DNA of 64,000 nt, from assembly GCF_004364865.1 (NCBI RefSeq), contig NZ_SOAU01000001.1:1116001-1180000 (forward strand), read 5' to 3'. The notes under the pieces were generated by a model. The model worked only from the letters and a program-made list of their open reading frames with translations. It was not told where the DNA came from and did no database searches. Every line of letters starts with the position of its first letter. The stretch's first letter is position 1. The position numbers and the translations under genes are program-made. This document shows, in pieces, positions 8,381 through 24,174 of the stretch. This DNA is from Ilumatobacter fluminis (GTDB taxonomy: Bacteria > Actinomycetota > Acidimicrobiia > Acidimicrobiales > Ilumatobacteraceae).

Positions 8381-9262
8381 ATGGTCGGAATGACCGGGTG
8401 GAAGAAGTTCGGGGTCGTGTCGATGTTCCTCGCGCCGAGCCTGATCGCTCTGCTCGCCTTCTCGATCGGGCCGATGTTCGGCACCCTCTGGGTCAGCGTC
8501 CAAGACTGGAATCTCATCCGACCGGCAGAGTTCATCGGCGCCGACAACTACCGCGAACTGTGGTCGGACGACGATTTCCGCCGGGCGCTGCTGAACACGC
8601 TCTACTACCTCGTCGGCTACCTGCCGCTCGTGATCGTCGGCGGGCTCGCCCTCGCGGTGCTCGTCAACCGCAAGCTGAAGGGCATCGCCGTGTTCCGAGC
8701 GATCTACTTCCTGCCGGTCGTGACCAGTTGGGTCGTCGTCGCCCTGCTCTGGAAGTGGCTCCTCAACCCGAGCGACGGGCTCGTCAACTGGGGGCTCGGG
8801 CTGGTCGGCATCGAGGGGCCGGGCTGGTGGACCTCGCGAACGTGGGCGATGCCGTCGGTGATCATCGCCTCGGCGTGGAAAGACCTCGGCTTCGTGATGA
8901 TCATCCTGCTCGCAGGTCTCCAGGCCATCGACGAGACCCTGTACGAGGCGGCTCGGATCGACGGCGCCAGCGGCTGGCGTCAGCTCCGCTCGATCACCTT
9001 GCCGCTCCTCACCCCGTCGCTGTTCTTCGTCGTCGTGATCTCCCTGATCAACGGCTTCCAGGTGTTCGACCAGGTGTGGGTCATGACCGAGGGCGGACCC
9101 GCCGGCTCGTCGACGGTGGTGGTCGAACAGATCGTGAAGAACACGTTCTCGTACGGTCGCGCCGGCTACGCCGCAGCCCAGAGCGTGGTGCTGTTCGTCA
9201 TCATCTTGCTGGTCACGGCGATCCAGATGCGGCTCCAGAAGCGGTGGGTCTTCTATGGCTGA
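8381..9262 (+). CDS. Sugar ABC transporter permease, MalF type
   Basis: The 293-residue integral membrane protein is the first permease of a CUT1-type carbohydrate ABC importer. It shows about six hydrophobic spans, beginning with MFLAPSLIALLAFSIGP. The cytoplasmic EAA loop reads EAARIDGASGWRQLRSITLP, the site that contacts the ATPase. ATG 8381 has a strong GGGGGTGA ribosome binding site. The gene overlaps the second permease by 8 bp. Binding protein, glucosidases and ROK regulator follow in the same direction, so the substrate is probably a maltose- or isomaltose-like alpha-glucoside. No ATPase gene is present in the cluster, so a shared MsmK/MsmX-type ATPase elsewhere would be needed (inference). 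Confidence 0.93.
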   Translation: MVGMTGWKKFGVVSMFLAPSLIALLAFSIGPMFGTLWVSVQDWNLIRPAEFIGADNYRELWSDDDFRRALLNTLYYLVGYLPLVIVGGLALAVLVNRKLKGIAVFRAIYFLPVVTSWVVVALLWKWLLNPSDGLVNWGLGLVGIEGPGWWTSRTWAMPSVIIASAWKDLGFVMIILLAGLQAIDETLYEAARIDGASGWRQLRSITLPLLTPSLFFVVVISLINGFQVFDQVWVMTEGGPAGSSTVVVEQIVKNTFSYGRAGYAAAQSVVLFVIILLVTAIQMRLQKRWVFYG

Positions 9263-18242: not shown

Positions 18243-18776
18243 GTGATCGACCGCGCAACCGCCCGCGCCGCTGTCCTGGCCGGGTTCCCGCTGGTGAACG
18301 ATCACCCCGACGTCGCCGGTGTGCTCCGGCGCCCCGATCTGCTCGCCGAACTCGGCCCGGCCCTCGCCGCGCCCTACGCCGACGCGGATGTGTCGGTCGT
18401 GTGTGCCCCCGAAGCCCGCGGCCCGATCCTCGGGGCGCTCGTCGCCGTCGAGCTCGGCGCCGGGCTCGTGCTGGTCCGCAAGGACGACCGCAATCACCCC
18501 GGCGCCGACCGGCGGGTCGTGTCGTCGCCGACGTGGCGGGGCGCCAGCGAGTCGTTCCAGACCCGTTCGTGGGACATCGAGCCGGCGGACCGGGTGCTCG
18601 TCGTCGACGACTGGGTCACCACCGGCAGTTCTCTCCGTGCCGTCCGATCGCTCGTGCTCGACGCCGGAGCCAGGTACGTCGGAGCGTCCGTGCTGGTCCG
18701 CAAGGCCGACGACGAGACGATCGACGACCTCGCCGTCGAGTGGCTCGTCCACTTCGACGAGATCGTCGGCCGATAG
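18243..18776 (+). CDS. Phosphoribosyltransferase, adenine-PRT-like
   Basis: The 177-residue type I phosphoribosyltransferase has the 13-residue PRPP-binding motif VLVVDDWVTTGSS near residue 120 and an APEARGP segment near residue 57, resembling the AEARG of adenine phosphoribosyltransferases. It would join a base to PRPP in purine salvage. Several actinobacterial PRT-family proteins of this type are unassigned, so the base specificity is uncertain. GTG 18243 is the only start compatible with the family N-terminus. It is divergent from the tRNA-Arg gene. Confidence 0.75.
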   Translation: MIDRATARAAVLAGFPLVNDHPDVAGVLRRPDLLAELGPALAAPYADADVSVVCAPEARGPILGALVAVELGAGLVLVRKDDRNHPGADRRVVSSPTWRGASESFQTRSWDIEPADRVLVVDDWVTTGSSLRAVRSLVLDAGARYVGASVLVRKADDETIDDLAVEWLVHFDEIVGR

Positions 18777-18808
18777 CCACCTCGCCGAGGTTGGTGTAGA
18801 AAGGTCGC

Positions 18809-19015
18809 ATGGGGTTCCGGCAGTTCTGGCGTTCGTTTCGAGCCACGAAGGGACAGTCCCGCCCTGCGTCGCCCGAAGACCACATCGCCGACGACGTGCG
18901 CGAGACGATGGGGCCGTTGGCCGGAAGTGGCGGCGGTGGGCACATGACGGGTGAGTCGGTGTACCACTACATCGAGGATCACGAGCAGCAGCCACACCGC
19001 CCCGACGACGACTGA
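18809..19015 (+). CDS. Tiny basic/acidic protein, tandem paralog 1
   Basis: The 68-residue protein has an amphipathic aromatic N-terminus (GFRQFWRSFR), an ADDVRETMG helix, a Gly-rich stretch and a MTGESVYHYIEDHE segment. An AAAGG site precedes ATG 18809. The layout matches the next gene: GFFRQLFRD, AREIRDTSG, TGATTYRHLEDRD. The pair therefore looks like a diverged tandem duplication. No known domain is recognised and no membrane span is present. The N-terminal helix could bind a membrane surface or a partner. Confidence 0.6.
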   Translation: MGFRQFWRSFRATKGQSRPASPEDHIADDVRETMGPLAGSGGGGHMTGESVYHYIEDHEQQPHRPDDD

Positions 19016-19017
19016 CG

Positions 19018-19203
19018 ATGAGCATCCGGGGATTCTTCCGCCAACTGTTCCGGGATGGGCCGAGTCGTCGAGAGCAACCGGCGCAGAACGCCGACCGCCT
19101 CGCCCGCGAGATTCGCGACACCTCCGGGCACTGGACCGGCGCTACGACCTATCGCCACCTCGAAGATCGAGACCGCTCGAACGACTCGAATCCCAAGCCC
19201 TGA
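19018..19203 (+). CDS. Tiny protein, tandem paralog 2
   Basis: The 61-residue protein begins two bases after the stop of its paralog, with no separate ribosome binding site, so it is probably translated by re-initiation. It shares the order aromatic-basic N-terminal helix, charged REIRDTSG helix and TGxxxYxxxED box with its neighbour, although identity is modest. No function is known. The co-conserved T-G-x(2)-x-Y-x(2)-x-E-D box is the most likely functional element. Confidence 0.55.
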   Translation: MSIRGFFRQLFRDGPSRREQPAQNADRLAREIRDTSGHWTGATTYRHLEDRDRSNDSNPKP

Positions 19204-19273: not shown

Positions 19274-21001
19274 GTGGCCGACCCGCTTTCGCTCGTCAAC
19301 GACCTGCTCGCACCCGTGTTCGCCGACATCGCCGGCGCGCCCGCCGATCCGGTGGTGCGACCGAGCGACCGTGCCGACGCCCAGGTGAACGGCGCACTGC
19401 CGCTCGCCAAGCAGCTCGGCACGAACCCGCGTGAGATCGCCCAGCGGGTCGTCGACTCCGGGGCGCTGCAGACGGTGTGCACCGACGTCGAGATCGCCGG
19501 TCCCGGCTTCATCAACCTGACGTTCGACGACGCATTCCTCGCCGCCGAACTGGGCGCCATCGCCGTCGGCGACCGCCTCGGCATCGTCGCCGACCCACAC
19601 CCGCGCACCGTCGTCATCGACTACTCGGCGCCCAACGTCGCCAAGGAGATGCACGCCGGCCACCTCCGCACCACCGTCATCGGCGATGCCCTCGTCCGGA
19701 TGCTCGAGTTCGCCGGTCACACCGTCATCCGCGAGAACCACATCGGCGACTGGGGTCGCCCGTTCGGCATGCTCATCGAGCACCTCCTCGACATCGGCGA
19801 AGACGTCGCTGCCGAAGGGATGCAGCAGGGTGATCTCGACGGCTTCTACAAGGCCGCCAACGCCAAGTTCGCCGACGACGAGGAGTTCCAGGCCCGGTCA
19901 CGCGACCGGGTGGTCAAGCTGCAGAGCTACGACCCCGAGACGATTGCGCTCTGGGAACGGCTCGTCGAGATGTCGACGGCCTACTTCAACCAGGTCTACG
20001 ACAAACTCGACGTGCTGCTGACCGACGACGACCTGATGGGGGAGAGCGTCTACCAGCCGAAGATGCAGGAGACGATCGACCGGCTCCGCAGCGCAGAACT
20101 GCTCGAGGAGAGCGACGGCGCGACCGTCGTGTTCCCGCCCGGGTTCACCAACCGTGACAACGAGCCGCTCCCGCTGATCGTCCAGGCTCGCACCGGCGGC
20201 TTCAACTACGCCACGAGCGACCTCACGTGCGTGATCGATCGCGTCGAACGGCTCGGAGCCGATCTGCTGCTGTACGTGGTCGGCGCGCCGCAGGCCCAGC
20301 ATCTCCAGATGGTCTTCGAGGTCGCCAAGATGGCCGGCTGGCTCGAACCCCCGGCCGAGGCGGTCCACGTGTCGTTCGGATCCGTGCTCGGCGAGGATCG
20401 CAAGATGCTGCGGAGTCGCTCGGGCGACGCCGTCAAGCTCGTCGAGTTGCTGGACGAGGCGGTCGAGCGCGCCGCCGCTGCCGTGGCGGAGAAGAACCCC
20501 GACCTCGACGACGCCGAGCGCGACGAGGTCGCTCGCACGATCGGCATCGGTGCGGTGAAGTACGCCGACCTGTCGACCGACCGCATCAAGGACTACGTGT
20601 TCGATTGGGATCGGATGCTCGCGTTCGAGGGCAACACGGCGCCGTACCTGCAGTACGCGCACGCCCGCATCTGCTCGATCTTCCGGCGGGCCGAGGTCGA
20701 TCGCACCAGCGTCCGGTCGACCGAGATCGCACTCGGCGAGCCGCCCGAGCGCGAGCTCGCGAAGCGTCTTCTGGCCTACCCGTCGGCGCTCGACGACACG
20801 CTGGCGACCTACTCGCCCCACAAGCTCTGCACGTACCTGTTCGACCTTGCGCAGGACTTCATGAGCTTCTACGAACACTGCCCCGTCATGAAGGCCGACG
20901 AGCCGGTTCGGAGCAGTCGCTTGGCGTTGAGCGACCTGACGGCGCGCACCCTCGAGCACGGCCTGGGCTTGCTCGGCATCACGGCGCCTGAGGCGATGTA
21001 G
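19274..21001 (+). CDS. argS: Arginyl-tRNA synthetase
   Basis: The 575-residue class I synthetase charges tRNA-Arg with arginine. It has an N-terminal additional domain at about residues 1-95. The active-site start APNVAKEMHAGHLRTT contains the HIGH-equivalent HAGH. The catalytic core contains GDWGRPFGM and YVVGAPQAQH. The C-terminal DALR anticodon-binding domain ends in GITAPEAM, close to the family's usual GITAPERM. The GTG start gives the normal N-terminus. It is the first gene of the syntenic block argS-lysA-hom-thrC-rho, which here is interrupted. Confidence 0.97.
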   Translation: MADPLSLVNDLLAPVFADIAGAPADPVVRPSDRADAQVNGALPLAKQLGTNPREIAQRVVDSGALQTVCTDVEIAGPGFINLTFDDAFLAAELGAIAVGDRLGIVADPHPRTVVIDYSAPNVAKEMHAGHLRTTVIGDALVRMLEFAGHTVIRENHIGDWGRPFGMLIEHLLDIGEDVAAEGMQQGDLDGFYKAANAKFADDEEFQARSRDRVVKLQSYDPETIALWERLVEMSTAYFNQVYDKLDVLLTDDDLMGESVYQPKMQETIDRLRSAELLEESDGATVVFPPGFTNRDNEPLPLIVQARTGGFNYATSDLTCVIDRVERLGADLLLYVVGAPQAQHLQMVFEVAKMAGWLEPPAEAVHVSFGSVLGEDRKMLRSRSGDAVKLVELLDEAVERAAAAVAEKNPDLDDAERDEVARTIGIGAVKYADLSTDRIKDYVFDWDRMLAFEGNTAPYLQYAHARICSIFRRAEVDRTSVRSTEIALGEPPERELAKRLLAYPSALDDTLATYSPHKLCTYLFDLAQDFMSFYEHCPVMKADEPVRSSRLALSDLTARTLEHGLGLLGITAPEAM

Positions 21002-21145: not shown

Positions 21146-21688
21146 ATGCAGCAGCTTCCACTCGATCCACCACAACAGCTCGGCACGGGCCATGACGTCG
21201 GCGCGACCTTCATCGAGGTGCTCGTCTCGATCGTCCTGCTCGGAACCGCGGGAATCGCTGTGCTGTCGGCGCTGGCGGCATCGGCGACCGGCGCCGCCGT
21301 GCAGCGAGAGGTCTCGACTGCGCAAGCGGCCCTCGCCAGCGCCGCCGATGCGGTCATCGACGTCGACGCTGCCGACGACAACTACGCGCTGTGCGCATCA
21401 CCGCACTCCTACGATCCGCTCGTCGCCGGTTCCTCGCCCGACGCAACAGTGTCCGTGACTCGGGTGGAGTTCTGGAACTCGACGACGCAGACGTATCAGC
21501 CCTCGTGCGTGTCGGGCGAAGCCGACCGGCTCCAACGGATCACGCTGACCGCCACCGACGGCGACCACACCGCCAGCCTGGCGGTCGTCAAGCGTCGCGC
21601 TGGATCTCCCACCCTCAATACCGTCCCCGCCGCCCCGAACGCCGGTGATGGCGGCATGGTGACGCCGACCCCTCACTCGGGACTCTGA
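21146..21688 (+). CDS. PilV-like minor prepilin (operon A, gene 1)
   Basis: The 180-residue protein is a type IV prepilin. It has a hydrophilic leader ending in Gly, then the processed N-terminus ATFIEVLVSIVLLGTAG, with the conserved Glu at mature position 5 and a hydrophobic assembly helix. The globular part has two Cys that may be bridged. It is clearly paralogous to the gene at 25738 (IEVLVxxVLLGTAGxAVL, then a WLAS/ALAS helix), but lacks that protein's Thr linker and CBM2 domain. Prepilin peptidase and pilus motor genes are not in the window. It is followed after 4 bp by the second pilin gene. A short palindrome GTTCAGTGAAC (21131-21141) sits just before the start. Confidence 0.83.
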   Translation: MQQLPLDPPQQLGTGHDVGATFIEVLVSIVLLGTAGIAVLSALAASATGAAVQREVSTAQAALASAADAVIDVDAADDNYALCASPHSYDPLVAGSSPDATVSVTRVEFWNSTTQTYQPSCVSGEADRLQRITLTATDGDHTASLAVVKRRAGSPTLNTVPAAPNAGDGGMVTPTPHSGL

Positions 21689-21692
21689 GATC

Positions 21693-23219
21693 ATGAATCG
21701 AACTTCTTCTGCCTCGCGTCGTGACGTCGGTATGACGTTGCCCGAAGTCGTGATCGTCATTGCCCTGCTCGGCATCATCACGGCGGTCGTCGTCGGCGCC
21801 GTCACCGTGGTGTTTCGCAGCGAGGACGGCATTGCCAATACCGTCGCCGAGACCCACGACGTGCAACAGGCAGTGAACTACTTCCCGCTCGACGTGCAGT
21901 CCGGCCCGATCGAGGTCGCTGCCTACGAGACGGCACCGAACGCCATCGAAGCCGGTTGTGGAGATGCATCGGCGACGAATGTGGTGTCGTTCGAGAGTGG
22001 CGACCGGCGGATTGCCTATCTCTCGACGACGGAGGGCACGGTCGCATCACTCGATCGGTTCGAGTGCGAGCCGTCGGGCTCCGGGTGGACCGTCGCCTCG
22101 TCCGCGAACATCGCTGACTCGCTGGACGCATCGAACGGCTCGCCGGTCGAGGTCACGATCGTCCCAGAGTCGTCTGACGCCTCGATCGTCGACGAGGTCG
22201 TGATGCGCTTCACGCAGGACGTCGATACCCCCGCTGTGATCGCGAGTCCGAACGCGGACGTCCTGCTCGACCCGGAGGTGCTCAGCGGGACGTGCGCGAC
22301 CGACAATCCGGTCGCCGCGGCATACGACTTCGGGGCGTTCGTCGAGACCGACGTCCACATCGCAGGCGGCATGATCGAGGGACCGCTGGCCACCGGTGGC
22401 ACCCTCACCTGGACGCCGAATACGACCGTGGCCCAGGCGAAGGCCAATGCGAAGTACCACGGCGTCGGGCTGTATGTCGGTTCGATCGGCTGGGGCACCT
22501 CGGCGACGAAGCTCGCAGTGTTCAAGGGGGACATCGTGATCGGCGGCCCGGCCTACGAGTCGAGCAAGAAGGTCTACCGAGACGCTTCGACTGCAGGCCA
22601 ATACGTCGAGATGAACGGCGGCGCCAAGTTCGTGCCGCTTTCCTCATATGCCAACCCGCTCGACTTCACGGCGGCGTTCGACGAGCTTCGCGCATGCTCG
22701 GGCGCGATCGCGTCGCTGCCTGCGTCGTGCACGAACTGCGCCCACGAAGTGACGATTCTCGACCCTGACCGGCCATCCCCGAACAACCAGTACGTGCCCG
22801 GCTCAAGCTCCAAGATGAAGCTCGACATCTCGGGGCCAGGGGGCAACATCCTCAACCTGCCCGAGAGCTACATCTCGTCCAGCACCGTCCAGGAGTTCAG
22901 CCACCAAGGTGGACTCTCCCAGTCCAAGCCGCTCATCGTGAACGTGATCGATGACGGTGACGGCGTGGTCAACTTTTCGGTTCCGAGTTCGTCGTGGCAG
23001 AACCTGGGGAGTCAGAAGAACGTGCTCGTCAACTTCCCGAACGCAACAACGGTGAACTTCACCAACCGGTTCAACGGCGCCGTCCTGGCCCCGTTCGCCG
23101 ATGTCACCACCGGCCAGGAATTCTCCGGTTCCGTCATCGCCAGCTCGTGGACGCACACCGGCGGCACCGTCCACAACGACAAGGACCCGTTCGATGGAAA
23201 CATCGACTTCGACAGCTGA
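21693..23219 (+). CDS. PilW/J-like prepilin with choice-of-anchor-A-like adhesive region (operon A, gene 2)
   Basis: The 508-residue protein has leader MNRTSSASRRDVG, cleavage after Gly, then MTLPEVVIVIALLG with Glu5. After a pilin stalk region (EDGIANTVAETHDVQQAVNY), the C-terminal 300 residues match the plan of choice-of-anchor-A adhesive domains: an EGPLATGGTL start, an LDFTAAFDELRACSGAIASLPA helix, VNFPNATTVNF, a GAVLAPFADVT loop and a GSVIASSWTH end. CTNC may form a local disulfide. Such domains occur in surface adhesins, but fusion to a pilin is unusual. Its paralog is at 26877. Confidence 0.82.
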   Translation: MNRTSSASRRDVGMTLPEVVIVIALLGIITAVVVGAVTVVFRSEDGIANTVAETHDVQQAVNYFPLDVQSGPIEVAAYETAPNAIEAGCGDASATNVVSFESGDRRIAYLSTTEGTVASLDRFECEPSGSGWTVASSANIADSLDASNGSPVEVTIVPESSDASIVDEVVMRFTQDVDTPAVIASPNADVLLDPEVLSGTCATDNPVAAAYDFGAFVETDVHIAGGMIEGPLATGGTLTWTPNTTVAQAKANAKYHGVGLYVGSIGWGTSATKLAVFKGDIVIGGPAYESSKKVYRDASTAGQYVEMNGGAKFVPLSSYANPLDFTAAFDELRACSGAIASLPASCTNCAHEVTILDPDRPSPNNQYVPGSSSKMKLDISGPGGNILNLPESYISSSTVQEFSHQGGLSQSKPLIVNVIDDGDGVVNFSVPSSSWQNLGSQKNVLVNFPNATTVNFTNRFNGAVLAPFADVTTGQEFSGSVIASSWTHTGGTVHNDKDPFDGNIDFDS

Positions 23220-24174
23220 ACCCACCGCCGGCCGCGACGGTGGCATGGTCCTCGTCCTGACGTTGCTGCTCACGATCGTGCTCGCCGTGATCGTGTTGGC
23301 ACTCGCCACCTACGCCGCAACGGCGTTGCGGACGTCGAGGGTCACTGATGGTCGCAACGAGAGCAATGTGAACGCCTCAGCGGGTCTCGACTGGACCATC
23401 GAACGGCTCGCCGAGAAGCAGCTCGCACCCGCCGACTGCGACGGTTCTGACGTCGGTGTTCCCGTTGCGGTCTTGCCGCAGGCCGGAACCATCGCGGTGG
23501 CGTGCACCAACGTGGCCGAGGTCAATGGCAACCCGACCGTTCACCTCGTGGCGACCGCGACGCTTCCCGATGGCACGTTCCGACGGATCGACGCCCTCGT
23601 CCAGGTCCCCGCAGCGAGCCACGTCGCCAACGTCACCCAGTGGAGCACCGACGCTCCCTTGAGCCCGGCGGCAGCCTCGGCCACGACGACCGCGGCTCCA
23701 GCCGGCACGACCACGACGACCGCGGCTCTAGCCGGCACGACCACGACGACCGCGGCTCCAGCCGGTACGACGACTACGACGGCTCCGGTCGCGACGACCA
23801 CGACGACCACAGCTCCGACGACGACCACCACCACGGTCACGCCGAGCGGCACAGTCACGTGCCAGCTGCGCATCACGAGCCAGAGCGGGGCGAACTACTG
23901 GGCCAAGCTCGACATCGTAAACGGTCGTTCGACGGCGATCTCAGCGTGGGATGTTCGCATCGAACTGGGGCCTGGCACCTCCGTCGACAGTGCTTACAAC
24001 TGGGACGGCGGGACGCCCACGCCCGACAAGGACGGCGTGATCACCAACAGCGACCTGGGTTGGAACGGCACGGTTGCGGCATCGACCACTCGCGCCGATG
24101 TCTCTGGGGGCCAGTTCAAGTGGAAGGGCAACGACCGGACCGTGCCGACCTGCACGGTCACATCGTTCTCGTAG
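23194..24174 (+). CDS. PilX-like prepilin with Thr linker and CBM2-like domain (operon A, gene 3)
   Basis: The 326-residue protein has an N-terminal hydrophobic helix after GRDGG (MVLVLTLLLTIVLAVIVLAL) and a following PilX-like region that is paralogous to the gene at 28418. A Thr/Ala-rich linker (about residues 160-218) built of 10-residue repeats follows. The C-terminal roughly 105-residue domain resembles carbohydrate-binding module family 2: an outer Cys pair, NYWAKLDIVN, SAWDVRIELG, YNWDGG and DLGWNGTVAA. The three Trp are placed like the cellulose-binding Trp of CBM2a. ATG 23194 overlaps the preceding gene by 26 bp and has an AAGGA site. The domain should be displayed on a pilus tip. 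Confidence 0.8.
   Translation: METSTSTAEPTAGRDGGMVLVLTLLLTIVLAVIVLALATYAATALRTSRVTDGRNESNVNASAGLDWTIERLAEKQLAPADCDGSDVGVPVAVLPQAGTIAVACTNVAEVNGNPTVHLVATATLPDGTFRRIDALVQVPAASHVANVTQWSTDAPLSPAAASATTTAAPAGTTTTTAALAGTTTTTAAPAGTTTTTAPVATTTTTTAPTTTTTTVTPSGTVTCQLRITSQSGANYWAKLDIVNGRSTAISAWDVRIELGPGTSVDSAYNWDGGTPTPDKDGVITNSDLGWNGTVAASTTRADVSGGQFKWKGNDRTVPTCTVTSFS
23681..23770 (+). repeat. Three 30-bp tandem repeats encoding the Thr/Ala linker
   Basis: Nearly identical 30-bp units start at 23681, 23711 and 23741 and encode a TTTAAPAGTT-type decapeptide three times. Only single-base differences separate the copies, which indicates recent expansion or homogenisation. Such linkers are commonly O-glycosylated or flexible spacers in secreted actinobacterial enzymes. 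Confidence 0.85.

Follow-up and report, generated by a model that had tools for sequence, protein, structure and literature searches.

SpoVM-like small proteins bind membranes via an amphipathic helix, an element that can also pack within protein complexes. The peripheral subunit-binding domain (PSBD; E3_binding, PF02817) has its usual setting within an acyltransferase, and genes as short as those treated here are easily missed in annotation. The family described below resembles the SpoVM-like proteins, as presented in an excerpt of PMC4307972, in its way of working, its members being very small, having an amphipathic helix and, in nearly all cases, lacking a transmembrane segment; it differs in that the helix is N-terminal and is followed by a second helix, a loop and a box, and no sporulation context is seen around the family. 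With the leaderless mycobacterial small proteins (excerpt of PMC4633059) the likeness lies in the short length and in a -10-like box before the start (11 of 30 members here). However, that account describes a mode of expression and not a protein family, and the signals in our set come from sequence alone. Members may be catalogued as unnamed clusters in the global microbial small-ORF catalogue, whose available portion (PMC11364881) contains no family description or function. Open-access literature (print may differ) yielded no description of Ilumatobacter or Acidimicrobiia small proteins, and the general small-ORF papers among the matches listed do not mention Acidimicrobiia in their available passages. 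The family is new, and of a familiar kind.

The window, i.e. the whole stretch of 64,000 nucleotides of Ilumatobacter fluminis DNA that was analysed, holds two consecutive small genes (Table 1), which the initial annotation described as tandem paralogs with no known family, the second starting 2 bp after the first. Both ORFs and their spacing agree with that description, and the two proteins are homologous by BLASTP (30 bits; E 1e-7 as a single comparison, with 31% identity across 58 columns) and by a shuffle test, in which their Smith-Waterman score of 75 was reached by 0/20000 shuffles (maximum 54). When each protein was used as a query against the whole home genome, neither retrieved its neighbour at E<=0.1, and both retrieved a third copy (E 1e-10 and 1.7e-7), a 64-aa ORF at G000:C1:2999309, 1.86 Mb from the pair. 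In both window ORFs GC3 exceeds GC1 and GC1 exceeds GC2 (0.81/0.68/0.49 and 0.76/0.65/0.55), the pattern expected for the coding DNA of a GC-rich genome, which supports coding on the + strand. The aromatic-basic N-terminus and the TGxxxYxxxED box claimed for both proteins are indeed there; the middle motif, given as RExx(D/E)T(S/M)G, is also present but is better written [RD][ED][IV]R[ED]T[SM]G, which accommodates the DDVRETMG of the first protein. The Gly-rich loop typical of relatives is mostly missing from the second protein, and neither protein has a match beyond chance in Pfam or NCBIfam. By reading, a permease-like gene lies to one side of the third copy, and a 66-aa ORF and a map-like gene lie to the other. 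This 66-aa ORF, directly upstream of the third copy (L038 6067-6267, G000), looks by eye like a small helix-turn-helix protein and has no Pfam match.

Table 1. Features of the small gene pair and its immediate neighbours (window coordinates).
Feature	Coordinates	Strand	Basis
Upstream neighbour, phosphoribosyltransferase	18243..18776	+	PF00156
TAGAAA, six bases before the ATG of the first gene, overlapping a weak AAAGG	18797..18808	+	read from sequence
First paralogue, 68 aa	18809..19015	+	ORF
N-terminal amphipathic aromatic/basic helix (predicted), first protein, residues 2-15	18812..18853	+	AF2, hydrophobic moment
TGESVYHYIED box, first protein, residues 47-57	18947..18979	+	alignments
Second paralogue, 61 aa	19018..19203	+	ATG 2 bp past the stop of the first paralogue
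TGATTYRHLED box, second protein, residues 40-50	19135..19167	+	alignments
Downstream neighbour, arginyl-tRNA synthetase (argS)	19274..21001	+	

A profile built from the three home-genome copies led to a clear relative in an Acidimicrobiales assembly (JANQPB010000024.1), whose protein is the same as that of genome G845; the two were taken as one record. Profile searches gave matches in 12 of 221 genomes at the family level (E<=0.05), in 10/397 of the order, 17/345 of the class, 8/39 of the family of G483 and 5/61 relatives (all at 0.01), in 9/138 genomes of another order of the class (0.001) and, with a wider profile, in 12/298 of the order (0.001); these samples overlap, and matches at the cut-offs are not all members. 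Since the multi-genome searches scored 15-43 first-look candidates per genome, out of totals that could exceed 200, absence from a genome is weak evidence. At that same depth no member was found outside the class, the home genome being the sole match (1/296 genomes). The accepted family has 32 members, which are spread over 29 loci and come from 25 genomes in two orders of the class; all of them are ORFs accepted by eye except two found by script. The profile searches did recover homologs with the reading frame kept in relatives. Weaker matches that were not accepted (E 3.5e-5 to 0.1) were partly read and otherwise set aside on E-value alone; the match in G117 (E 3.5e-5) was dropped for lying inside a long arginine-rich ORF and that in G623 (E 1.3e-4) for its internal stops.

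Statistics were calculated on the 30 full-length members, a set that excludes the second G456 copy and the G451 member, which a contig end truncates. In a jackknife each left-out member scored 32-79 bits against the rest, and all 9000 decoys, which were shuffles and not real proteins, stayed below 13 bits; the scores of sibling groups, e.g. L131/L132 and L116/L117, are inflated because siblings were removed for G788 and G004 only. These full-length proteins measure 55-79 aa, with one of 117 aa, and follow a common plan: an amphipathic N-terminal helix, a helix of the DSLAxxxKDA or DxLAxEIRxT kind, a Gly-rich loop and a C-terminal box. The box takes the form TGxx(V,I,T)(Y,F)xx(L,I) in 8/30 members, including both window genes, and 16/30 carry a YxxSF tail; no member has both forms and six have neither. 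Member L115, carrying TSPVYDHIADGAENYAKSF, aligns with both, which suggests that the TG box of the initial annotation is the start of a longer element. The window-type (8) and YxxSF-type (15) subsets align in HHalign with a probability of 97.5% (E 5e-12). In the tree the window type makes up a clade of 10 that is well supported (100/97) and spans both orders. The two window genes are not joined in the tree, and a topology that joins them is not rejected (AU p 0.233). The two AF2 models show three helices at low confidence (pLDDT 61.6 and 60.3, pTM 0.23 and 0.26), and Foldseek returned for the first model a single match (E 5.4), nothing usable.

Across the 30 members, Pfam, NCBIfam and PHROGs gave isolated single-member matches only, the best being phrog_30169 (E 0.0056, one member, no function given). 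For 15 members PADLOC gave 0 matches, and one unnamed PHROG was common to two of them (best E 0.25). Two queries found no match among 50,697 phage and 72,556 plasmid records, and two queries against viral contigs gave no confirmed match. No Pfam, NCBIfam, PHROGs or PADLOC match is thus shared among members, and the absence of a known family holds. Judged by their sequences, the window genes are paralogues belonging to a small-protein family of the class that had not been listed before.

The initial annotation also offered membrane binding as a possibility, and here the N-terminal helix is informative. Its hydrophobic moment averages 0.83 in the 30 members against 0.53 in shuffled sequences, and the amphipathicity is significant at 100 degrees (combined p 2e-19), with no signal at 160 or 60 degrees. 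Singly, 20/30 members reach p<0.05 and 10/30 fail alone. F or W occurs within the first 15 residues of every member, and the first 18 residues carry a mean charge of +3.1 (at least +2 in 25/30, 0 in the least basic member). In the first window protein AF2 places the helix, with low confidence, at residues 3-15. As a set, the family shows the amphipathic cationic helix that characterises SpoVM-type peripheral membrane proteins, and the predicted helix is of membrane type, which agrees with the earlier suggestion; alternatively, such a helix can be read as packing inside a protein complex. The 19-residue hydropathy is <=1.2 in 29/30 members, i.e. no membrane-spanning segment, versus 2.7 in L130, the 117-aa member (G335, L146 8211-8564), which has a C-terminal transmembrane helix; a proV-type gene, for a glycine betaine/proline-type ABC transporter, lies 124 bp downstream of it.

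From the amphipathic, aromatic and basic helix together with the transmembrane segment of L130 we infer a peripheral inner-membrane protein. The explanation that we favour, at a little short of even confidence, is that the window genes are paralogues of a new small-protein family acting as a peripheral inner-membrane adaptor or regulator. The first helix would anchor the protein to the cell membrane from its inner face, and a partner protein would be bound in trans by a surface made up of the Gly-rich loop and the C-terminal box.

A cationic amphipathic peptide might instead disrupt the membranes of its producer or of competitors, as a toxin or antimicrobial does, and the mostly cationic, aromatic and amphipathic N-terminus, the patchy distribution and the tandem copies at several loci would fit this. 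However, the protein is in large part polar and shows conservation, 29/30 members lack a membrane-spanning segment, no export or maturation gene was recognised beside the pair, the two phage and plasmid queries and the PADLOC scan of 15 members were empty, and one copy is kept at the same place in two genera; we therefore regard this possibility as unlikely. The same net positive N-terminus, together with the weakly predicted helices and a function for which a linked partner is unnecessary, would suit a small regulator whose basic helices contact DNA or RNA. Against it, no DNA-binding family match is common to members (an SSB model matches one member at E 0.018, under its cut-off and at chance level), and the F/W hydrophobic face and the transmembrane variant favour membranes, which leaves a nucleic-acid role improbable.

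The C-terminal half raised a further possibility, namely a soluble adaptor that is related to the PSBD or mimics it: helices 2 and 3 and the Gly-rich loop would form a PSBD-like hairpin docking on an enzyme, e.g. a dihydrolipoyl dehydrogenase-type flavoprotein. In the window type a Gly-rich loop is followed, as in the PSBD, by GGR(I/M)TxxxVxxxL (GGRMTGxxVYRHLE resembles the PSBD GGRITxxDVxxxL), and helices flank the loop, if only by weak prediction in the family. In a PDB profile search the best 4 of 10 weak matches were dihydrolipoyl acyltransferase fragments (E 0.17-0.41), which we take to be PSBDs, and column-shuffled controls reached the profile scores in 1/150, 0/150 and 0/150 cases. In addition, the small gene of G516 and G381 stands directly behind a flavoprotein gene, whose scanned G516 copy has MerA and dihydrolipoyl dehydrogenase as best NCBIfam matches, both under their cut-offs. 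However, HHalign assigned probabilities of 7.3%, 3.6% and 1.2%, a PSBD HMM gave the best members 7.1 and 6.7 bits and shuffled decoys up to 10, and the window-type profile alone found no PSBD in PDB. The Pfam E3_binding model matched 0/30 members at E<=0.1 and, within HMMER's filters, 0/8 window-type members at E<=10. The flavoprotein motif is adjacent at 2/28 loci examined, which are orthologous to each other; at L118 a dehydrogenase-like ORF was discounted, being about 2.3 kb away. Unlike the PSBD, the family consists of free-standing ORFs (55-117 aa) that belong to no acyltransferase and have a further helix at the N-terminus. The resemblance stays below significance and may serve as a lead only, and the probability of a PSBD-type adaptor is low. 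Lower still, in our estimate, is that of class-specific autonomous mini-adaptors in which a membrane-binding helix would be fused to a minimal PSBD-like docking hairpin, expressed mostly from their own promoter, duplicated and relocated; if true, this would mean that enzymes or machines are brought to the membrane surface.

We also examined the sequence before the starts. TANNNT occurs 5-8 bases before the start in 11/30 members and 26-32 bases before it in 9 further ones, several with a Shine-Dalgarno by eye, versus a mean of 1.2/30 in 4-base bins further upstream, the second peak (26-32) included; these counts include siblings and are not independent. The starts of L115, L116, L117, L120, L121, L123, L132 and L133 were chosen by hand, some after viewing the upstream sequence, so the promoter count is slightly favoured. 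The TAGAAA of the first window gene is a near-match to the leaderless -10 of its relatives and was excluded from the exact-match count. Upstream of the second window gene we found neither TANNNT nor, by eye, a Shine-Dalgarno, and it is probably translationally coupled to the first. A simple scan around the pair returned no sigma-70 promoter or terminator. Under the peripheral membrane adaptor reading, the protein would be made from its own transcription unit at most loci, and in the window the second copy would be carried on the transcript of the first.

The distribution of copies bears on the suggestion that the two genes are a conserved pair whose products bind each other. In the stretches scanned a single gene is present at 25/29 loci, where a second copy may be missed as some contigs are short. 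Tandem copies occur at 4/29 loci (window, G788, G456 and G006), whose neighbourhoods are unrelated. In G006 (L149 8647-8925) a decayed second copy lies directly behind an intact one. In G456 (L147 7371-7730) the second, open copy lies about 0.55 kb upstream of the first and apparently arose by duplication of a segment that takes in some of the adjacent sequence as well. The tandem copies of G788 are 91% identical. The gene lies between secA and prfB in two genera, represented by G788 and G1124, and as G1124 has a single copy in the same place, the G788 duplication is younger than the split of the two.

For five orthologue pairs dN/dS was 0.34, 0.31, 0.27, 0.38 and 0.30, which shows purifying selection between orthologues, with the frame kept. 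Among paralogues the ratio was 0.49-0.70 in the window genome, 0.56 in G845, 0.69 in G788 and 0.25 in G004, and purifying selection looks weaker there, except in G004; several pairs have a dS close to saturation (as high as 2.0). Given the empty site in G004 and the unequal copy numbers, gain and loss of the gene look frequent, and the two genes do not form a conserved unit. The idea of a conserved pair of interacting proteins is thus not supported: most loci have one gene, the few tandem loci are unrelated, and one of their copies is decayed. A two-gene toxin-antitoxin system or obligate heteromer, to which two cistrons 2 bp apart would point, is likewise highly improbable, because the two genes are paralogues and the tandems are few and scattered; two different genes kept together across genomes, as in type II toxin-antitoxin systems, were not found in the stretches scanned.

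The top NCBIfam matches of the pair's upstream neighbour are adenine phosphoribosyltransferases, under their cut-offs. Of the same-genus genomes, 8 besides the window have an argS match; one of them, G001, is truncated there by a contig end, and among the readable ones only G004 has the same two neighbours; there the phosphoribosyltransferase gene also adjoins argS, across an intergenic stretch of about 110 bp with no small gene. As the pair precedes argS, an argS leader peptide was considered; it was rejected, no argS being recognised by eye in those other family neighbourhoods that were read. A mobile element was also rejected, since no inverted repeats flank the pair, the empty G004 site bears no footprint, and two queries gave no match in phages or plasmids and no confirmed one in viral contigs. 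A structured RNA search returned tRNA only. Further downstream in the window (21146-24174, +) three consecutive ORFs resemble, by eye, pilin-type proteins; the second has an ice-binding-like adhesive domain (PF20597, E 8e-41), and the third combines a Thr-rich repeat region with a CBM_2 match under cut-off (E 3e-4).

Elsewhere, besides orthologous neighbourhoods, the neighbours recurring within 7 kb were members of common gene families. ABC-transporter ATPases occur close to 7 loci, and what looks by eye like a Cys/Met-type enzyme is found at G004b, L121, L123 and L130; several others recur at two or three loci, e.g. a GGDEF-like protein (by eye) at G845a and in the window. None was regarded as linked, and with a patchy distribution and differing neighbourhoods no pathway is implied. 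Just before the small gene of G483 (L095 about 9103-9132) a stretch looks by eye like a tRNA T-arm; ARAGORN found no tRNA in locus L054, which overlaps it.

What began as a curious gene pair is thus now a defined family of 32 members found, for which there are a profile, conserved residues and promoter-like signals, and it occurs in a bacterial class for which no small-protein description was found in open-access literature. Its first helix and its C-terminal box are direct targets for localisation and pull-down work.
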